From Ignavibacteriaceae bacterium (GTDB taxonomy: Bacteria > Bacteroidota > Ignavibacteria > Ignavibacteriales > Ignavibacteriaceae): a stretch of 58,669 nucleotides of DNA. Made by a program: the position numbers and the translations under genes. Under the pieces are notes generated by a model. That model had not been told where the DNA came from and made no database searches. It saw only the letters and a program-made list of their open reading frames with translations. Where the stretch lies: positions 1 through 58,669 of the forward strand of contig JARLHC010000118.1 in assembly GCA_031292455.1 (NCBI GenBank), written 5' to 3'. This document shows positions 33,977-44,321 of this stretch, piece after piece. Every line of letters begins with the position of its first letter. Position 1 is the stretch's first letter.

Positions 33977-34275
33977 AATTAAAATCCTTTTTTCTTTATC
34001 GGAATATAAATTTTATTTCGCCATAGATTGGTAACAAACTTAAATGGTTATTCTATATCACATTAAGTGAATAACCCTTATCCCCTTATTTAATTATTGC
34101 AGATATTCTGCTAACACTTTTCTATGACATTTATCCGGGGTATCTTCACTGCAATGGAGACAATTCTGATAAAATTCTTAAACCTTTCATAATCTACTAT
34201 AGGATAATTGGTGTTGAAAATATAATAAATAAGTCGTACAATAATAGTGTCAGATATTATAAGATGAGGCAGGCT

Positions 34276-34899
34276 ATGAAATTAGCAGTAATTTTATTTT
34301 GTCTGGGGATTTTGTCGGGTTGTTCATCAGTACAGCAAACATCAGATAAAAATGCACCTGTACTATTAGTCCAGCGTCCATTTCCTGCTTTTCCGATTTC
34401 ATTCTTTAAACCTAATATTTTTCTGGATGCTGATATTTATATCAGGGATGATGGCACGGTATCAAATGTTATATTAAAAACAGGGAGCGGTATAAAGTCA
34501 TGGGATTCCGCTGCAACCGCGATTATCAGTACATGGCAGTACAGTCCGATGCGTGTAAATAATAAACCTGCTGCTTGCTGGATACATCAGAAAATGAAGG
34601 TCATAAGTGCCGAACCGATAATTTATTCTCTATCAGCTCTTCTATTCCCCACATATCAAATTGCAGATTCGATATACACTGACCTTATAGGAGGAAGCAA
34701 TTTTGAAGAGATCGCAAAGAATATTTCCCTTTACCCTGAGCTTGGTAGACATATTGAAATGGGGGAAGTTAACATTTACCAGTATTCGGAACTAATAAGA
34801 AACAGCATTACCAATTTAAGTGAAGGTGAATTTACAAAACCGATAAAATATGATGACCATTATATTATATTCAAACGCGTTCAGACAGTTGCAAAATAA
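34276..34899 (+). CDS. Lipoprotein with TonB-C-like and parvulin-like (PpiC) regions
   Basis: I chose ATG at 34276 because GAGG lies 6 bases upstream; an in-frame ATG at 34264 would add four residues. A lipobox (GILSGC) anchors it to a membrane. Residues ~40-110 match a TonB C-terminal fold (LDADIYIRDDGTVSNVIL, DSAATAIISTWQYSPM). Residues ~130-205 resemble a peptidyl-prolyl isomerase of the parvulin type (GGSNFEEIAKNIS, LSEGEFTKPIKYDDHYIIFKRV). The isomerase active-site residues look incomplete, so binding rather than catalysis may remain. The combination is unusual. Confidence 0.65.
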   Translation: MKLAVILFCLGILSGCSSVQQTSDKNAPVLLVQRPFPAFPISFFKPNIFLDADIYIRDDGTVSNVILKTGSGIKSWDSAATAIISTWQYSPMRVNNKPAACWIHQKMKVISAEPIIYSLSALLFPTYQIADSIYTDLIGGSNFEEIAKNISLYPELGRHIEMGEVNIYQYSELIRNSITNLSEGEFTKPIKYDDHYIIFKRVQTVAK

Positions 34900-38459: not shown

Positions 38460-38855
38460 TTACAGCATAATATAAACCCATCCGGCTTCGACTTTTGTCT
38501 TATAGGTACGGATGGATTTTGTATGGATGTGTTTCATCAGCATGCCGATGTTCTGAAGGTATTGGCCTATCATTGGAGGCGGGATCTCTTTGCCAAAATC
38601 TGCAGGAACCGGGCCGGAGAGTGCTTCGCCGTTAGAAACATCAAACTGGGCACAGTGCATGGCACAGGTCAGATAAATGCCGTCGAGCGTACCCTTATCG
38701 AGCGGCGCATTCATATGACCACAGCGCTGCTGCACGGCGTAATAATTTCCGCCACAGTTGCAGATGACGATCTCATTTCCGTCAAGTTGGACAGGTTTCA
38801 TTCCACCTAGAGCTATTTCATCAGTTCTAATCGCTTTAATAAAATTTTCAGGCAT
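38460..38855 (-). CDS. Rieske-type [2Fe-2S] protein, copy 1 of the redox operon
   Basis: I start it at ATG 38855 (MPENFIKAIR), preceded by AAGGA; the longer frame extends into the neighbouring gene. The 131 residues contain CGH (Cys45, His47) and CAMH (Cys64, His67) in RCGHMNAPLDKGTLDG and LTCAMHCAQFD, the Rieske cluster ligands. It is probably a soluble Rieske ferredoxin with a C-terminal extension of ~35 residues. The ATG overlaps the stop region of the FTR gene by 8 bases. Base composition is richer in G+C than flanking genes. Confidence 0.88.
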   Translation of the reverse strand: MPENFIKAIRTDEIALGGMKPVQLDGNEIVICNCGGNYYAVQQRCGHMNAPLDKGTLDGIYLTCAMHCAQFDVSNGEALSGPVPADFGKEIPPPMIGQYLQNIGMLMKHIHTKSIRTYKTKVEAGWVYIML

Positions 38856-39183
38856 GATTAACATCCTTCGGTGGTAACTGGGGGAGTGTATCAGGATCCA
38901 GAACATCCTTATGTACAAAGAGCCCGCACCAACAGCGTTTTATTTCATCAAAATGTTTTCGATGGAATGGAATGCATGGACAAACGATTTGCATATCACG
39001 CTCGCGTTTATGCCGCAATGGCTGGCAAGGACAGAAAGGGATGCCATGTTTGTTTTCCAGTATCACTTCCTGGTCGAGCAGAAAATTCATCAACTCAACA
39101 TCGAGAGTGAATTTAAAGCCCAATGGTTCTACTATTTTTTCGAAAAAATAATGCAAAGCTTTTTTTCTTAATTCAGCATTCAT
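38848..39183 (-). CDS. Ferredoxin-thioredoxin reductase catalytic chain homolog
   Basis: The 111-residue protein has all six catalytic and cluster cysteines in three pairs: CPC (51,53), CPC (68,70) and CWC (84,86). Known FTR uses a [4Fe-4S] cluster next to a disulfide to pass electrons from ferredoxin to thioredoxin; the third pair is usually CHC, here CWC. No variable (alpha) subunit gene is present, as in many non-photosynthetic bacteria and archaea. It lies 11 bases after a glutaredoxin-like gene and overlaps the Rieske gene. Confidence 0.9.
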   Translation of the reverse strand: MNAELRKKALHYFFEKIVEPLGFKFTLDVELMNFLLDQEVILENKHGIPFCPCQPLRHKRERDMQIVCPCIPFHRKHFDEIKRCWCGLFVHKDVLDPDTLPQLPPKDVNHA

Positions 39184-39194
39184 TCAACACAACC

Positions 39195-39440
39195 TCATAT
39201 TCCAATGGCTTTCGCATAGCGATCGGGCAGATAGCCGACTATGAATTCATCATCGATTTTAACAAACGGGAAACCGGTTGCGCCTGCCGCATCAAGCTCA
39301 TCCAGAATCCTACTTTGCGTTGCCTCGTCAGCCAAGTCGTAATCGATGTAGGTGAAAGGGATATTGTGTTGAGTGAAATAATTTTTAGTCTTTCTGCACC
39401 AGGGGCAGGTTGAGAGAGTATACATGCTAACTTTCTTCAT
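39195..39440 (-). CDS. Glutaredoxin-like protein
   Basis: The ATG at 39440 is chosen because AAAGGTG lies just upstream; the GTG at 39446 is part of that ribosome site. The 81-residue thioredoxin fold has the CPWC active site (Cys12, Cys15), a cis-Pro turn in ATGFPFVKIDDEF, and a GYLPD end. With the FTR homolog next to it, it is a candidate disulfide partner, in place of or in addition to thioredoxin. Confidence 0.9.
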   Translation of the reverse strand: MKKVSMYTLSTCPWCRKTKNYFTQHNIPFTYIDYDLADEATQSRILDELDAAGATGFPFVKIDDEFIVGYLPDRYAKAIGI

Positions 39441-39481
39441 GATCACCTTTATAAATATGTGATAGTTTATTTATTGTCTTT

Positions 39482-39787
39482 TTATTTAAGGCTGACGAAC
39501 ACTTTGCCGTCTTCGGATTTTGTGGAGTAATTTGTAAGACCAATTTCAGGTGCATCGAGAAACTTACCTGTTCGAACATCGTACTGCCAGTCGTGGCATG
39601 GACAAGTGATCGTATAACCATCCAACTTTCCTGTGAACAGCGGGCACGCCATATGAGCGCACCTGCCTGAAACAGCAAAGACTACTCCTTCGACGCGAGC
39701 TAAAAGCACATTCACTCCTATAGGATAGGCCGGCACCATGCGGCCTTCAAGCAGTGCGGCATCGTCCAATACATATATCCAATTCAT
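39482..39787 (-). CDS. Rieske-type [2Fe-2S] ferredoxin, copy 2 of the redox operon
   Basis: The 101-residue protein has the ligands Cys43/His45 (RCAHMACPL) and Cys62/His65 (TCPCHDWQYD), with the ring-hydroxylase type end EIGLTNYSTKSEDGKVFVSL. It is the first gene of the four-gene operon (Rieske, glutaredoxin, FTR, Rieske). It may be the electron donor to the FTR homolog, or the operon may serve another oxidoreductase. The promoter lies in the 143-base gap shared with the divergent marC-like gene. Confidence 0.92.
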   Translation of the reverse strand: MNWIYVLDDAALLEGRMVPAYPIGVNVLLARVEGVVFAVSGRCAHMACPLFTGKLDGYTITCPCHDWQYDVRTGKFLDAPEIGLTNYSTKSEDGKVFVSLK

Positions 39788-39930: not shown

Positions 39931-40605
39931 ATGAAGGATATAGCGAGTTTTTTTTCATGGGTTTTCGTAACACTAATAACACTTCTTCCAATTATAAATC
40001 CAGTGAGTACAGCAGTTCTTTTGCTGGGGATTAGTTCTCATCTCACTGAAGACGAGCGCAATCGTCAGATTACATTAGCGTGCATATATATGACCGGCAT
40101 CTTAGTGATTTTTCTTTTAGGCGGTCATTTCATAATGGTCATTTTTGGAATATCGATACCAGGCATTCGAATAGCAGGTGGAATGGTAATCGGCTTTCTG
40201 GGATTTCGTATGCTATTTCCCAGTGAAGAGCATATCACACAAGAAGGGAAACAGGAGGCACTTGATAAGAGCAATATCTCCTTTAGTCCACTTGCAATGC
40301 CTAGTTTGAGCGGACCAGGAGCTATTGCAACAGTCATTACGATATCTTCATCTATCGATAGCCGCCATGGTTATGAAAAATTCTTTTCTTTCACGGGTGT
40401 AATTCTTGCAATTTTAATTACAGCATTCATCTCCTGGTTAGTTCTTCGCAGTGCCGGTTTGATTCGCCGGATATTAGGAGTAAATGGGATTGCAAGTCTT
40501 TCCAAAATCATGGGTTTTCTATTAATTTGCATAGGTATTCAATTTGCAATTAATGGCGTAAAAGATCTGGTACTAGATACAGATTTTTGGCAGAAAGCGA
40601 TTTAA
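39931..40605 (+). CDS. MarC family membrane protein
   Basis: The 224-residue protein has six membrane helices with the two MarC repeats: LLPIINPVSTAVLLLGISSHL near the start and PLAMPSLSGPGAIATVITISS in the middle. RIAGGMVIGFLGFRML is a further family element. MarC proteins are of unknown function and no longer thought to give multidrug resistance. It is divergent from the Rieske/FTR operon. Confidence 0.88.
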   Translation: MKDIASFFSWVFVTLITLLPIINPVSTAVLLLGISSHLTEDERNRQITLACIYMTGILVIFLLGGHFIMVIFGISIPGIRIAGGMVIGFLGFRMLFPSEEHITQEGKQEALDKSNISFSPLAMPSLSGPGAIATVITISSSIDSRHGYEKFFSFTGVILAILITAFISWLVLRSAGLIRRILGVNGIASLSKIMGFLLICIGIQFAINGVKDLVLDTDFWQKAI

Positions 40606-42496: not shown

Positions 42497-43357
42497 CTAA
42501 ATCTTATCTTTAAGACCATGCAACATACTTATCAGTATTTCTTTACACTTTTCTGTTTTGGTGTCCTCATCATCCAAATGCAGACCTTCAAATTTGGCCA
42601 TATCTTTAGCAAGTGCATTCAATTTAGCATCTTCCAATATTTCATATAAACTTTGGAGTACTTTTGCACTTGCTATTTTTGAAATATCCCTTCCCAAAAG
42701 TCTAGCGCCACCAATTTCATAATCATCTACCTTATTAAAAATGTCGGAATGTTCTTCAAACAGTCTATTCCGATTTCCCGCCTCTAAATAAGTTGTAGCA
42801 ATTAAGCAAAGATCTTTTGCATCCTTTAATTTTTGATCTGTACTCCGATCGTTCCAGGCAAATATTTTTAACATAACCAGACTTTCAACAGAGGCAGCTT
42901 TAATGATTATTTCCGGATCATTCTGAATTATAATTTCTTCTGCATTCCTATAGGCATCTTCAAATCCAATTACATTCATTTCTTTTTTATCTTCATCCTG
43001 CCACTCTATAGTTTCATTGGGATTAGTAATAGCTCCAAATGGGATAAAATCTACAATCATCCCCTTATAGGAATACCTGTGTAAAATGTTTTCACTTTTA
43101 ATGAATCCCGCCTTTTCTATTTCATTACTAAGCAGGTTATACTCATTCCAATTCCTTAAACTAATCGCAAAATCGATATCATTTGTTGCTCTATATATTT
43201 TAATATTGTAGATGTAATTAAGTATAAAATCCCTTACAGAAGCTCCAACAATAAAAAAATCTATATTAAGCTTATCCGCAACTTCTTTAGTTCTGCTCAG
43301 AATTTTCAGGTTAATCCTGTCAATCTTATTGGAAATATTTAACAATTTCTTTTTCAT
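42497..43357 (-). CDS. AbiEii/AbiGii-type nucleotidyltransferase (toxin of a type IV TA pair)
   Basis: The 286-residue protein has the polymerase-beta-like motif GASVRDFIL (38-46), the metal-binding Asp60 and Asp62 (ATNDIDFAI) and a third Asp103 (IVDFIPFG). AbiEii toxins transfer nucleotides to RNA targets such as tRNA acceptor ends and act with AbiEi as a phage-abortive or stabilising unit. It starts inside the last codons of the AbiEi-like gene (32-base overlap), the expected order antitoxin then toxin. It ends next to the aminotransferase remnant. Confidence 0.82.
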   Translation of the reverse strand: MKKKLLNISNKIDRINLKILSRTKEVADKLNIDFFIVGASVRDFILNYIYNIKIYRATNDIDFAISLRNWNEYNLLSNEIEKAGFIKSENILHRYSYKGMIVDFIPFGAITNPNETIEWQDEDKKEMNVIGFEDAYRNAEEIIIQNDPEIIIKAASVESLVMLKIFAWNDRSTDQKLKDAKDLCLIATTYLEAGNRNRLFEEHSDIFNKVDDYEIGGARLLGRDISKIASAKVLQSLYEILEDAKLNALAKDMAKFEGLHLDDEDTKTEKCKEILISMLHGLKDKI

Positions 43358-44321
43358 ATATTATTTGGGCTGCTTCAATATTTCTTGGATCGCCAGTTGC
43401 TAATAAATCAGCATATACCAAAATTGGATGCGTTATATTCAGAATATGATTATCCTCAAATTTCCAGAATTTTTTTATTAGTACTAAATTGCCCTGTAGA
43501 TTTTTTCTTAATCTATTTCTTAGGACAAACTCCCCTTGTCTATCTCCCACGATGTATATTGTATAATTGAAAGGGCGCAGATATTTTGTCAATCTTGCTG
43601 CTGCCTCCTCCCCTCCCCACAAAGCACCATACCTACCCAAATCTAATTCTTCGAATAATCCTTGCTTCAGCTCATATTTTCCGAGTGTAAATTTTGGTTT
43701 TAATTTTTCCGGGTATAGGGTTACCCATCTTTCCAATAACTTTTCCTTATTAATTATTTTGCATATACCATCATGAATTTGGATATACCCCTGTCTTTGT
43801 AAATCTTTTAGAGTAAGATGAACAGTTCCATGGGTTATACCAGCTTTTTTCGCAATTTCACGTACAGTATTTTTTTCAATTCCAGGGTTACAAAGAAGAG
43901 TAAAGATAGTTTGAAGAGCAGCGGGATAAAATGGCTTTTCTATAGTTTTAGTCTTTTTGATTTCCCGTAATTTATTGCCCTTAATATTAATGAGCAAAGG
44001 AGGAATATTAATAAATGCATTACCGGCAGTATCTATAAAATTAATATTATTTTTTTCTATAGTTTTTCTCAATTCAGGATTCACATATTCTGTGATTAAT
44101 AACAGTATTCCCCGATTACCCTTTAATTTATTTACTACAGTACCGAATCTAGCTTTGGTCAGAAAAAGTCTTACTTCGGTGTTCAATAATAAGTCGTATC
44201 CTTCAATTTTAATAATAAGATCCCGCTGGTTGTTAAATTCATGGATACGCATTTTTAAGCCAGTTTCTGCTTCAAATCTTGTTATTGCTTTATCAATTGT
44301 ATCTTTATTTCGCAGTTCCAT
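43326..44321 (-). CDS. AbiEi-type antitoxin/transcriptional regulator
   Basis: The 331-residue protein has a central helix-turn-helix (NTVREIAKKAGITHGTVHLTLKDLQRQG, two adjoining parts, ~150-178), a preceding NNINFIDTAGNAFINIPPLL block and the C-terminal VYADLLATGDPRNIEAAQIIYE typical of AbiEi-family antitoxins. In known AbiE systems the antitoxin represses its own operon by binding inverted repeats. Matching boxes are visible at 44326-44438. Confidence 0.82.
   Translation of the reverse strand: MELRNKDTIDKAITRFEAETGLKMRIHEFNNQRDLIIKIEGYDLLLNTEVRLFLTKARFGTVVNKLKGNRGILLLITEYVNPELRKTIEKNNINFIDTAGNAFINIPPLLINIKGNKLREIKKTKTIEKPFYPAALQTIFTLLCNPGIEKNTVREIAKKAGITHGTVHLTLKDLQRQGYIQIHDGICKIINKEKLLERWVTLYPEKLKPKFTLGKYELKQGLFEELDLGRYGALWGGEEAAARLTKYLRPFNYTIYIVGDRQGEFVLRNRLRKNLQGNLVLIKKFWKFEDNHILNITHPILVYADLLATGDPRNIEAAQIIYEKEIVKYFQ

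Follow-up and report, generated by a model that had tools for sequence, protein, structure and literature searches.

A four-gene cassette linking two Rieske proteins to a glutaredoxin and an FTR/FDR-type catalytic chain in an Ignavibacteriaceae bacterium and other phyla

Described disulfide reductases and the cassette in the window

FTR-type enzymes take up electrons one by one at a [4Fe-4S] cluster and use them to reduce a disulfide. The ferredoxin:disulfide reductases (FDRs) of Methanosarcina and bacteria, close non-plant relatives of the plant and cyanobacterial ferredoxin:thioredoxin reductases (FTRs), possess a rubredoxin domain that is thought to pass electrons on, and normally lack the variable subunit; a Tyr replaces the plant His, and glutaredoxin-like proteins are possible substrates. 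Ferredoxin is the donor in the characterised FTR/FDR systems (PMC7278568). A review of thiol relays covers thioredoxin or disulfide reductases that depend on NAD(P)H, F420, ferredoxin-flavin and ferredoxin/[4Fe-4S], none of which is fed by a Rieske protein (PMC7278568).

We analysed a 58,669-nucleotide stretch of DNA from an Ignavibacteriaceae bacterium (contig JARLHC010000118.1), referred to below as the window. It contains a cassette of four small redox genes (Table 1), ordered RieA-Grx-FTR-RieB in the direction of transcription. A preliminary description of the sequence had these genes overlapping or nearly so, and the spacing agreed: RieA and Grx are 41 bp apart, Grx and FTR are 11 bp apart, and RieB shares 8 bp with FTR, forming an operon-like unit. 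Because RieB homologues begin at the position corresponding to 38855, RieB most likely starts there (MPENF..., 131 aa) rather than at the upstream TTG of a 152-aa ORF; the glutaredoxin start codon is the ATG at 39440. The glutaredoxin combines its PF00462 match with a CxxC motif, as expected of its family, and the two Rieske proteins have the CxH...CxxH motif and PF00355 match of small soluble Rieske ferredoxins. None of the four proteins reached the cut-off of an NCBIfam model, and a promoter and terminator scan gave counts like those of shuffled sequence.

Table 1. Genes of the cassette in the window, listed in transcription order
Gene and predicted product	Position	Strand	Properties
RieA, soluble Rieske [2Fe-2S] protein	39482-39787	-	101 aa, first gene; PF00355 2.1e-18
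Glutaredoxin (Grx)	39195-39440	-	81 aa, active site CPWC; PF00462 1.3e-11
FTR/FDR-type catalytic chain	38848-39183	-	111 aa; FeThRed_B PF02943 7.2e-23
RieB, soluble Rieske [2Fe-2S] protein	38460-38855	-	131 aa; PF00355 5.9e-16

Comparison with FDR (solved structure 4tpu) revealed the same FTR catalytic fold by profile and the same six Cys; both gene sets lack a variable subunit and include a glutaredoxin-type partner gene (for FDR, e.g., methanoredoxin). However, the cassette protein has CWC instead of CYC or CFC, a 13- instead of a 12-residue spacer, and no rubredoxin domain, and it is accompanied by a CPWC partner and two Rieske genes. The plant and cyanobacterial FTR catalytic chain is homologous over residues 8-98, whereas the cassette shows CWC rather than CHC, Grx rather than thioredoxin, and Rieske rather than plant-type ferredoxin genes. 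The variable subunit (FTRv) that the preliminary description had reported missing was indeed not detected in the four-gene cassette by Pfam, which is normal for FDR-type relatives. The solved Grx-FTR fusion 7pwe (196 aa, approximately 36 bits to the cassette FTR profile) contains the same two domains, which in the cassette are separate adjoining genes; since Grx and FTR matches fill its 196 aa, it has no room for a Rieske domain, and the joining of the two domains supports a direct Grx-FTR partnership. The dioxygenase Rieske ferredoxins (2qpz, 5bok) share their fold and cluster motif with RieB and, by profile, with RieA, but the cassette proteins are linked to an FTR and not to an oxygenase, RieA has an extra Cys pair, and RieB has an inserted helix.

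Because defining features of both plant-type FTR and Methanosarcina-type FDR were looked for and not found, the cassette is, on sequence grounds, a variant of the FTR/FDR-glutaredoxin system that belongs to neither type. Its parts come from known families; what appears new is their combination, the CWC/CPWC pair, and the presence of Rieske proteins in place of rubredoxin. A search of the open-licence literature found no description of the cassette, of the CWC/CPWC pair, or of a rubredoxin-for-Rieske exchange.

Distribution, transfer, and genomic neighbourhood

A GTDB genome scan yielded 14 loci, whose titles named Bacteroidales, Ignavibacteriae, Ferrigenium, Rhodocyclaceae, Chloroflexi, Treponema, Thermoleophilia, and Gemmatimonadetes. 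A number of these genomes were assembled from metagenomes of a single fen, so individual taxon labels may be wrong. All of the loci not cut by a contig end contained RieA, Grx, FTR, and RieB in identical order and strand. The cassette of locus L009 lies on an 810-kb contig, and other loci came from different studies. Sweeps detected the cassette in 15 of 199 genomes of the class of the Thermoleophilia locus, and in 5/249 and 4/245 genomes of the classes of the Chloroflexi and Ignavibacteriae loci, respectively; sweeps by order or phylum gave one genome each for Ferrigenium (1/250), Treponema (1/247), and Gemmatimonadetes (1/249). FTR scores were bimodal, with complete cassette FTRs at 156-232 bits and other FTRs at 60 bits or below.

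The preliminary description had called for a survey of this gene order, which proved not to be unique to the contig: RieA-Grx-FTR occurred in one order and strand in 32 distinct loci from at least seven phyla (33 were counted, but L004 and L017 appear to be one contig), with RieB also present in 28, although related sequences occur among these loci and the counts are not independent observations. Recurrence in 32 distinct loci excludes chance as the source of the order. The genes were all co-directional, with gaps mostly between -14 and 54 bp. RieB was missing from four loci, one of which ends at a contig end, while the other three (L024-L026) genuinely lack it and are basal in the clade. Pairwise identity values were correlated among the four proteins (r 0.82-0.90), and none of 2000 permutations gave values as high; the identities rise and fall together, and the cassette has therefore been inherited as a unit.

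The G+C content of the cassette (44.3%) exceeded that of the window (35.9%), corresponding to the 99.9th percentile of equal-length stretches and to the G+C peak of the window, and its GC3 was 0.38-0.50 compared with 0.33 +/- 0.05 in other long ORFs. The cassette FTR is the sole FTR in the window's own genome. The cassette was not found in 58 related genomes, nor in any other of 296 genomes sampled from the phylum. Given this absence in kin and the G+C peak, the cassette in the window was probably acquired. In the FTR tree, cassette sequences of Bacteroidota, Ignavibacteriota, and Pseudomonadota were interleaved, and midpoint rooting placed those of Chloroflexi and Thermoleophilia towards the base. 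Sporadic presence, the jump in G+C, and the interleaving of phyla point to horizontal spread of the cassette, extending the transfer that the preliminary description had suggested from G+C alone. Plasmid-borne spread was considered and rejected, with no match in 72,556 plasmids; for viral carriage, 29 pattern matches were obtained among viral contigs, none of which encoded a relative.

Neighbouring genes in G+C-rich loci were called by GC3-aware ORF calling combined with tblastn. In Thermoleophilia, RieB was followed directly by an Fe/Mn superoxide dismutase (SOD) gene in all 15 distinct loci, and RieA was preceded directly by a gene for a nitroreductase-family flavoprotein in 13 of the 15, giving a co-directional cluster nitroreductase-[RieA-Grx-FTR-RieB]-SOD; neither gene was found near the 15 other FTRs of that class (0/15). 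These Thermoleophilia neighbours may be partly inherited synteny. Elsewhere, SOD was directly downstream in the Ignavibacteriae locus L008, and genes for a ferritin-like protein (L003), a rubrerythrin-family protein (L005), and VIT-family proteins (L006, L008, L010) were close to the cassette. Outside Thermoleophilia, no constant fifth gene was found and the stress link is anecdotal.

In the window, the cassette is surrounded by genes for a MarC-family membrane protein, a GNAT acetyltransferase, methyltransferases, and an AbiE pair, with no stress gene adjoining it. These neighbours are uninformative, so the oxygen-stress reading rests mainly on Thermoleophilia. The MarC-family gene (39931-40605, plus strand) is divergent to RieA, and in the Rhodocyclaceae locus L011 a relative (925-1560) is separated from the cassette by approximately 3 kb, which may be a coincidence. 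The overlapping AbiEii toxin-like (PF08843) and AbiEi antitoxin-like (PF09952) genes (42497-44321, minus strand) constitute a type IV toxin-antitoxin pair. A small protein encoded at 34264-34899 (plus strand) shows an unusual pairing of a TonB C-terminal domain with a weak PPIC-type isomerase match.

The CWC clade and its partner proteins

The FTR in the window has all six Cys in the arrangement CPC-X14-CPC-X13-CWC, as the preliminary description had read it, with CWC in place of CHC. CWC was present in all 31 readable cassette FTRs, whereas CYC or CFC was present in 40/40 other FTRs read, these being the Thermoleophilia and Chloroflexi sweep loci with the Spirochaetota set left out. A branch with 100/100 support separated all CWC-FTRs from the remaining sequences, and the clade was further marked by the 13-residue spacer and the CPWC Grx partner. 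Trp at the FTR histidine position suggests altered chemistry. The AlphaFold2 model of the cassette FTR had a mean pLDDT of 53 and was set aside.

The full comparison set comprised 69 other FTR loci, of which the Thermoleophilia and Chloroflexi sweeps supplied 40 and the Spirochaetota sweep 29. A C-terminal CxxC tail was found in 47 of these 69 FTRs (32/40 and 15/29, respectively) and in none of the 31 CWC-FTRs; in the one tail checked, Pfam identified a rubredoxin-like domain. Rieske neighbours showed the opposite pattern, occurring at 32/32 cassette loci and 0/69 other FTR loci, while a Grx gene adjoined the FTR in all 69 of the latter. In terms of gene content, the Rieske proteins thus occupy the place of rubredoxin elsewhere.

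The Grx active site was CPWC in all cassette loci and in none of the 69 other FTR-linked glutaredoxins. Among the canonical FTRs (L068-L082, L110-L138), those with a rubredoxin-like tail were mostly accompanied by Grx with C[GIVM]WC and those without a tail by Grx with CGHC, CSHC, CGFC, or CAFC; the Grx active site thus tracks FTR architecture more widely.

The two Rieske proteins flanking Grx-FTR are different, as had been noted from the sequence, RieA with and RieB without an extra Cys pair. Such a pair is a feature of bc-type Rieske proteins and was present in RieA of every cassette locus. The RieA motif is CxHMxC...CPCHDW in the window and CxH[ML]xC...CPCH across cassettes. RieA is nevertheless not a bc-type Rieske protein: it has CPCHDW instead of CPCHGS, no membrane anchor was seen, and the potential-raising Ser of bc-type proteins is missing. 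RieB has neither Cys of the pair and contains an inserted helix at residues 94-108 (AlphaFold2, pLDDT 86), and its best structural matches were dioxygenase Rieske ferredoxins. In genomes G337, G748, and G1091, the only Rieske proteins are the two of the cassette, in G732 only RieA is present, and in the window's genome the only Rieske protein outside the cassette is that of a bc complex, beside cytochrome b. With no other Rieske proteins, the usual oxygenase partners are missing from these five genomes, although draft or metagenome-assembled genomes may be incomplete and other carriers do have further Rieske proteins.

The bc-type respiratory complex of the window's organism is encoded by Rieske, cytochrome b, and multiheme cytochrome c genes in a row (L102, 1274-4244; genome G000, contig 138). 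One of the three genomes whose cassette genuinely lacks RieB encodes, away from the cassette, a single Rieske protein (L103, 1810-2163) that has a long insertion ahead of its final strands and may provide a RieB-like function from outside the cassette.

Proposed electron flow through the cassette

We lean towards the cassette being a self-contained, horizontally transferred, Rieske-fed thiol-disulfide reductase chain, probably for cells meeting oxygen. With the rubredoxin domain absent and Rieske genes present instead, the most economical reading is that the reductase would have the Rieske proteins as its electron carriers. The association of Rieske proteins with this FTR is strengthened by the 32/32 versus 0/69 linkage, the lack of a rubredoxin domain, and the genomes with cassette Rieske proteins only. 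As one-electron carriers, the Rieske proteins (RieA always, RieB usually) would replace the ferredoxin or rubredoxin input of an FDR-type [4Fe-4S] disulfide reductase; the FTR would collect two electrons one at a time and reduce the CPWC Grx encoded beside it, and reduced Grx would then reduce oxidised protein disulfides. Where present, the nitroreductase is a candidate upstream reductase. We infer the cluster types, the direction of electron flow, the upstream reductase, and the targets. Rieske clusters are stable to oxygen, a property that would fit a module for oxygen stress.

The direction of flow is where this scheme is most exposed. Known Rieske potentials are approximately -150 mV or higher, above typical disulfide potentials and above ferredoxins, so that disulfide reduction would be uphill unless the potentials are tuned, and the reverse direction stays a serious rival. 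In that case, reduced Grx or a thiol pool would deliver electrons to the FTR, which would split the pair and pass them through Rieske proteins to a respiratory or an oxygen- or ROS-consuming acceptor. Besides the potentials, the flanking of the FTR by two different Rieske proteins, the extra Cys pair that RieA shares with high-potential bc-type proteins, and Trp in place of the Tyr/His of the FDR/FTR active site are consistent with reverse flow. However, RieA (CPCHDW) is without the potential-raising Ser, no acceptor is encoded nearby, and homologous enzymes act as reductases (PMC7278568), and we judge reverse flow distinctly unlikely.

Two other readings deprive the Rieske proteins of a carrier role. 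FTR and Grx could form an ordinary ferredoxin-dependent FDR-Grx pair, with the Rieske proteins serving something else and merely carried along, as ferredoxin's role in characterised systems (PMC7278568) and the commonness of Grx-FTR without Rieske would allow; this is unlikely in view of the strict Rieske linkage (32/32 versus 0/69), the absence of the rubredoxin domain in exactly the CWC clade, the conserved RieA-Grx-FTR-RieB interleaving with short gaps, and the several genomes that have no other Rieske partner. Alternatively, FTR and Grx could maintain RieA, by reducing its extra disulfide or by helping to build or repair its cluster, which would make the Rieske proteins clients and not donors. 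The Cys pair in every cassette RieA and the invariance of RieA, compared with a RieB that can be missing, agree with this, but RieB is usually present despite lacking the pair, Rieske proteins elsewhere do without an FTR, and a carrier role accounts better for the rubredoxin-for-Rieske pattern, making maintenance very improbable.

Whether the cassette represents a new electron input to disulfide reduction, through Rieske proteins and not ferredoxin, rubredoxin, or flavin, in a gene-transferred oxygen-tolerance module, we regard as evenly balanced. In a stronger form, the FTR may split the two electrons of a dithiol between two different Rieske proteins. If true, a Rieske-fed relay would add an electron-input route to thiol relays and illustrate a way of connecting an anaerobe enzyme to carriers that withstand oxygen; the question posed is that of Rieske-driven disulfide reduction or an enzyme running backwards.

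In one carrier genome (G328, locus L005), the cassette FTR occurs together with a second FTR that scores like the canonical ones (50 bits), indicating that both systems can coexist.
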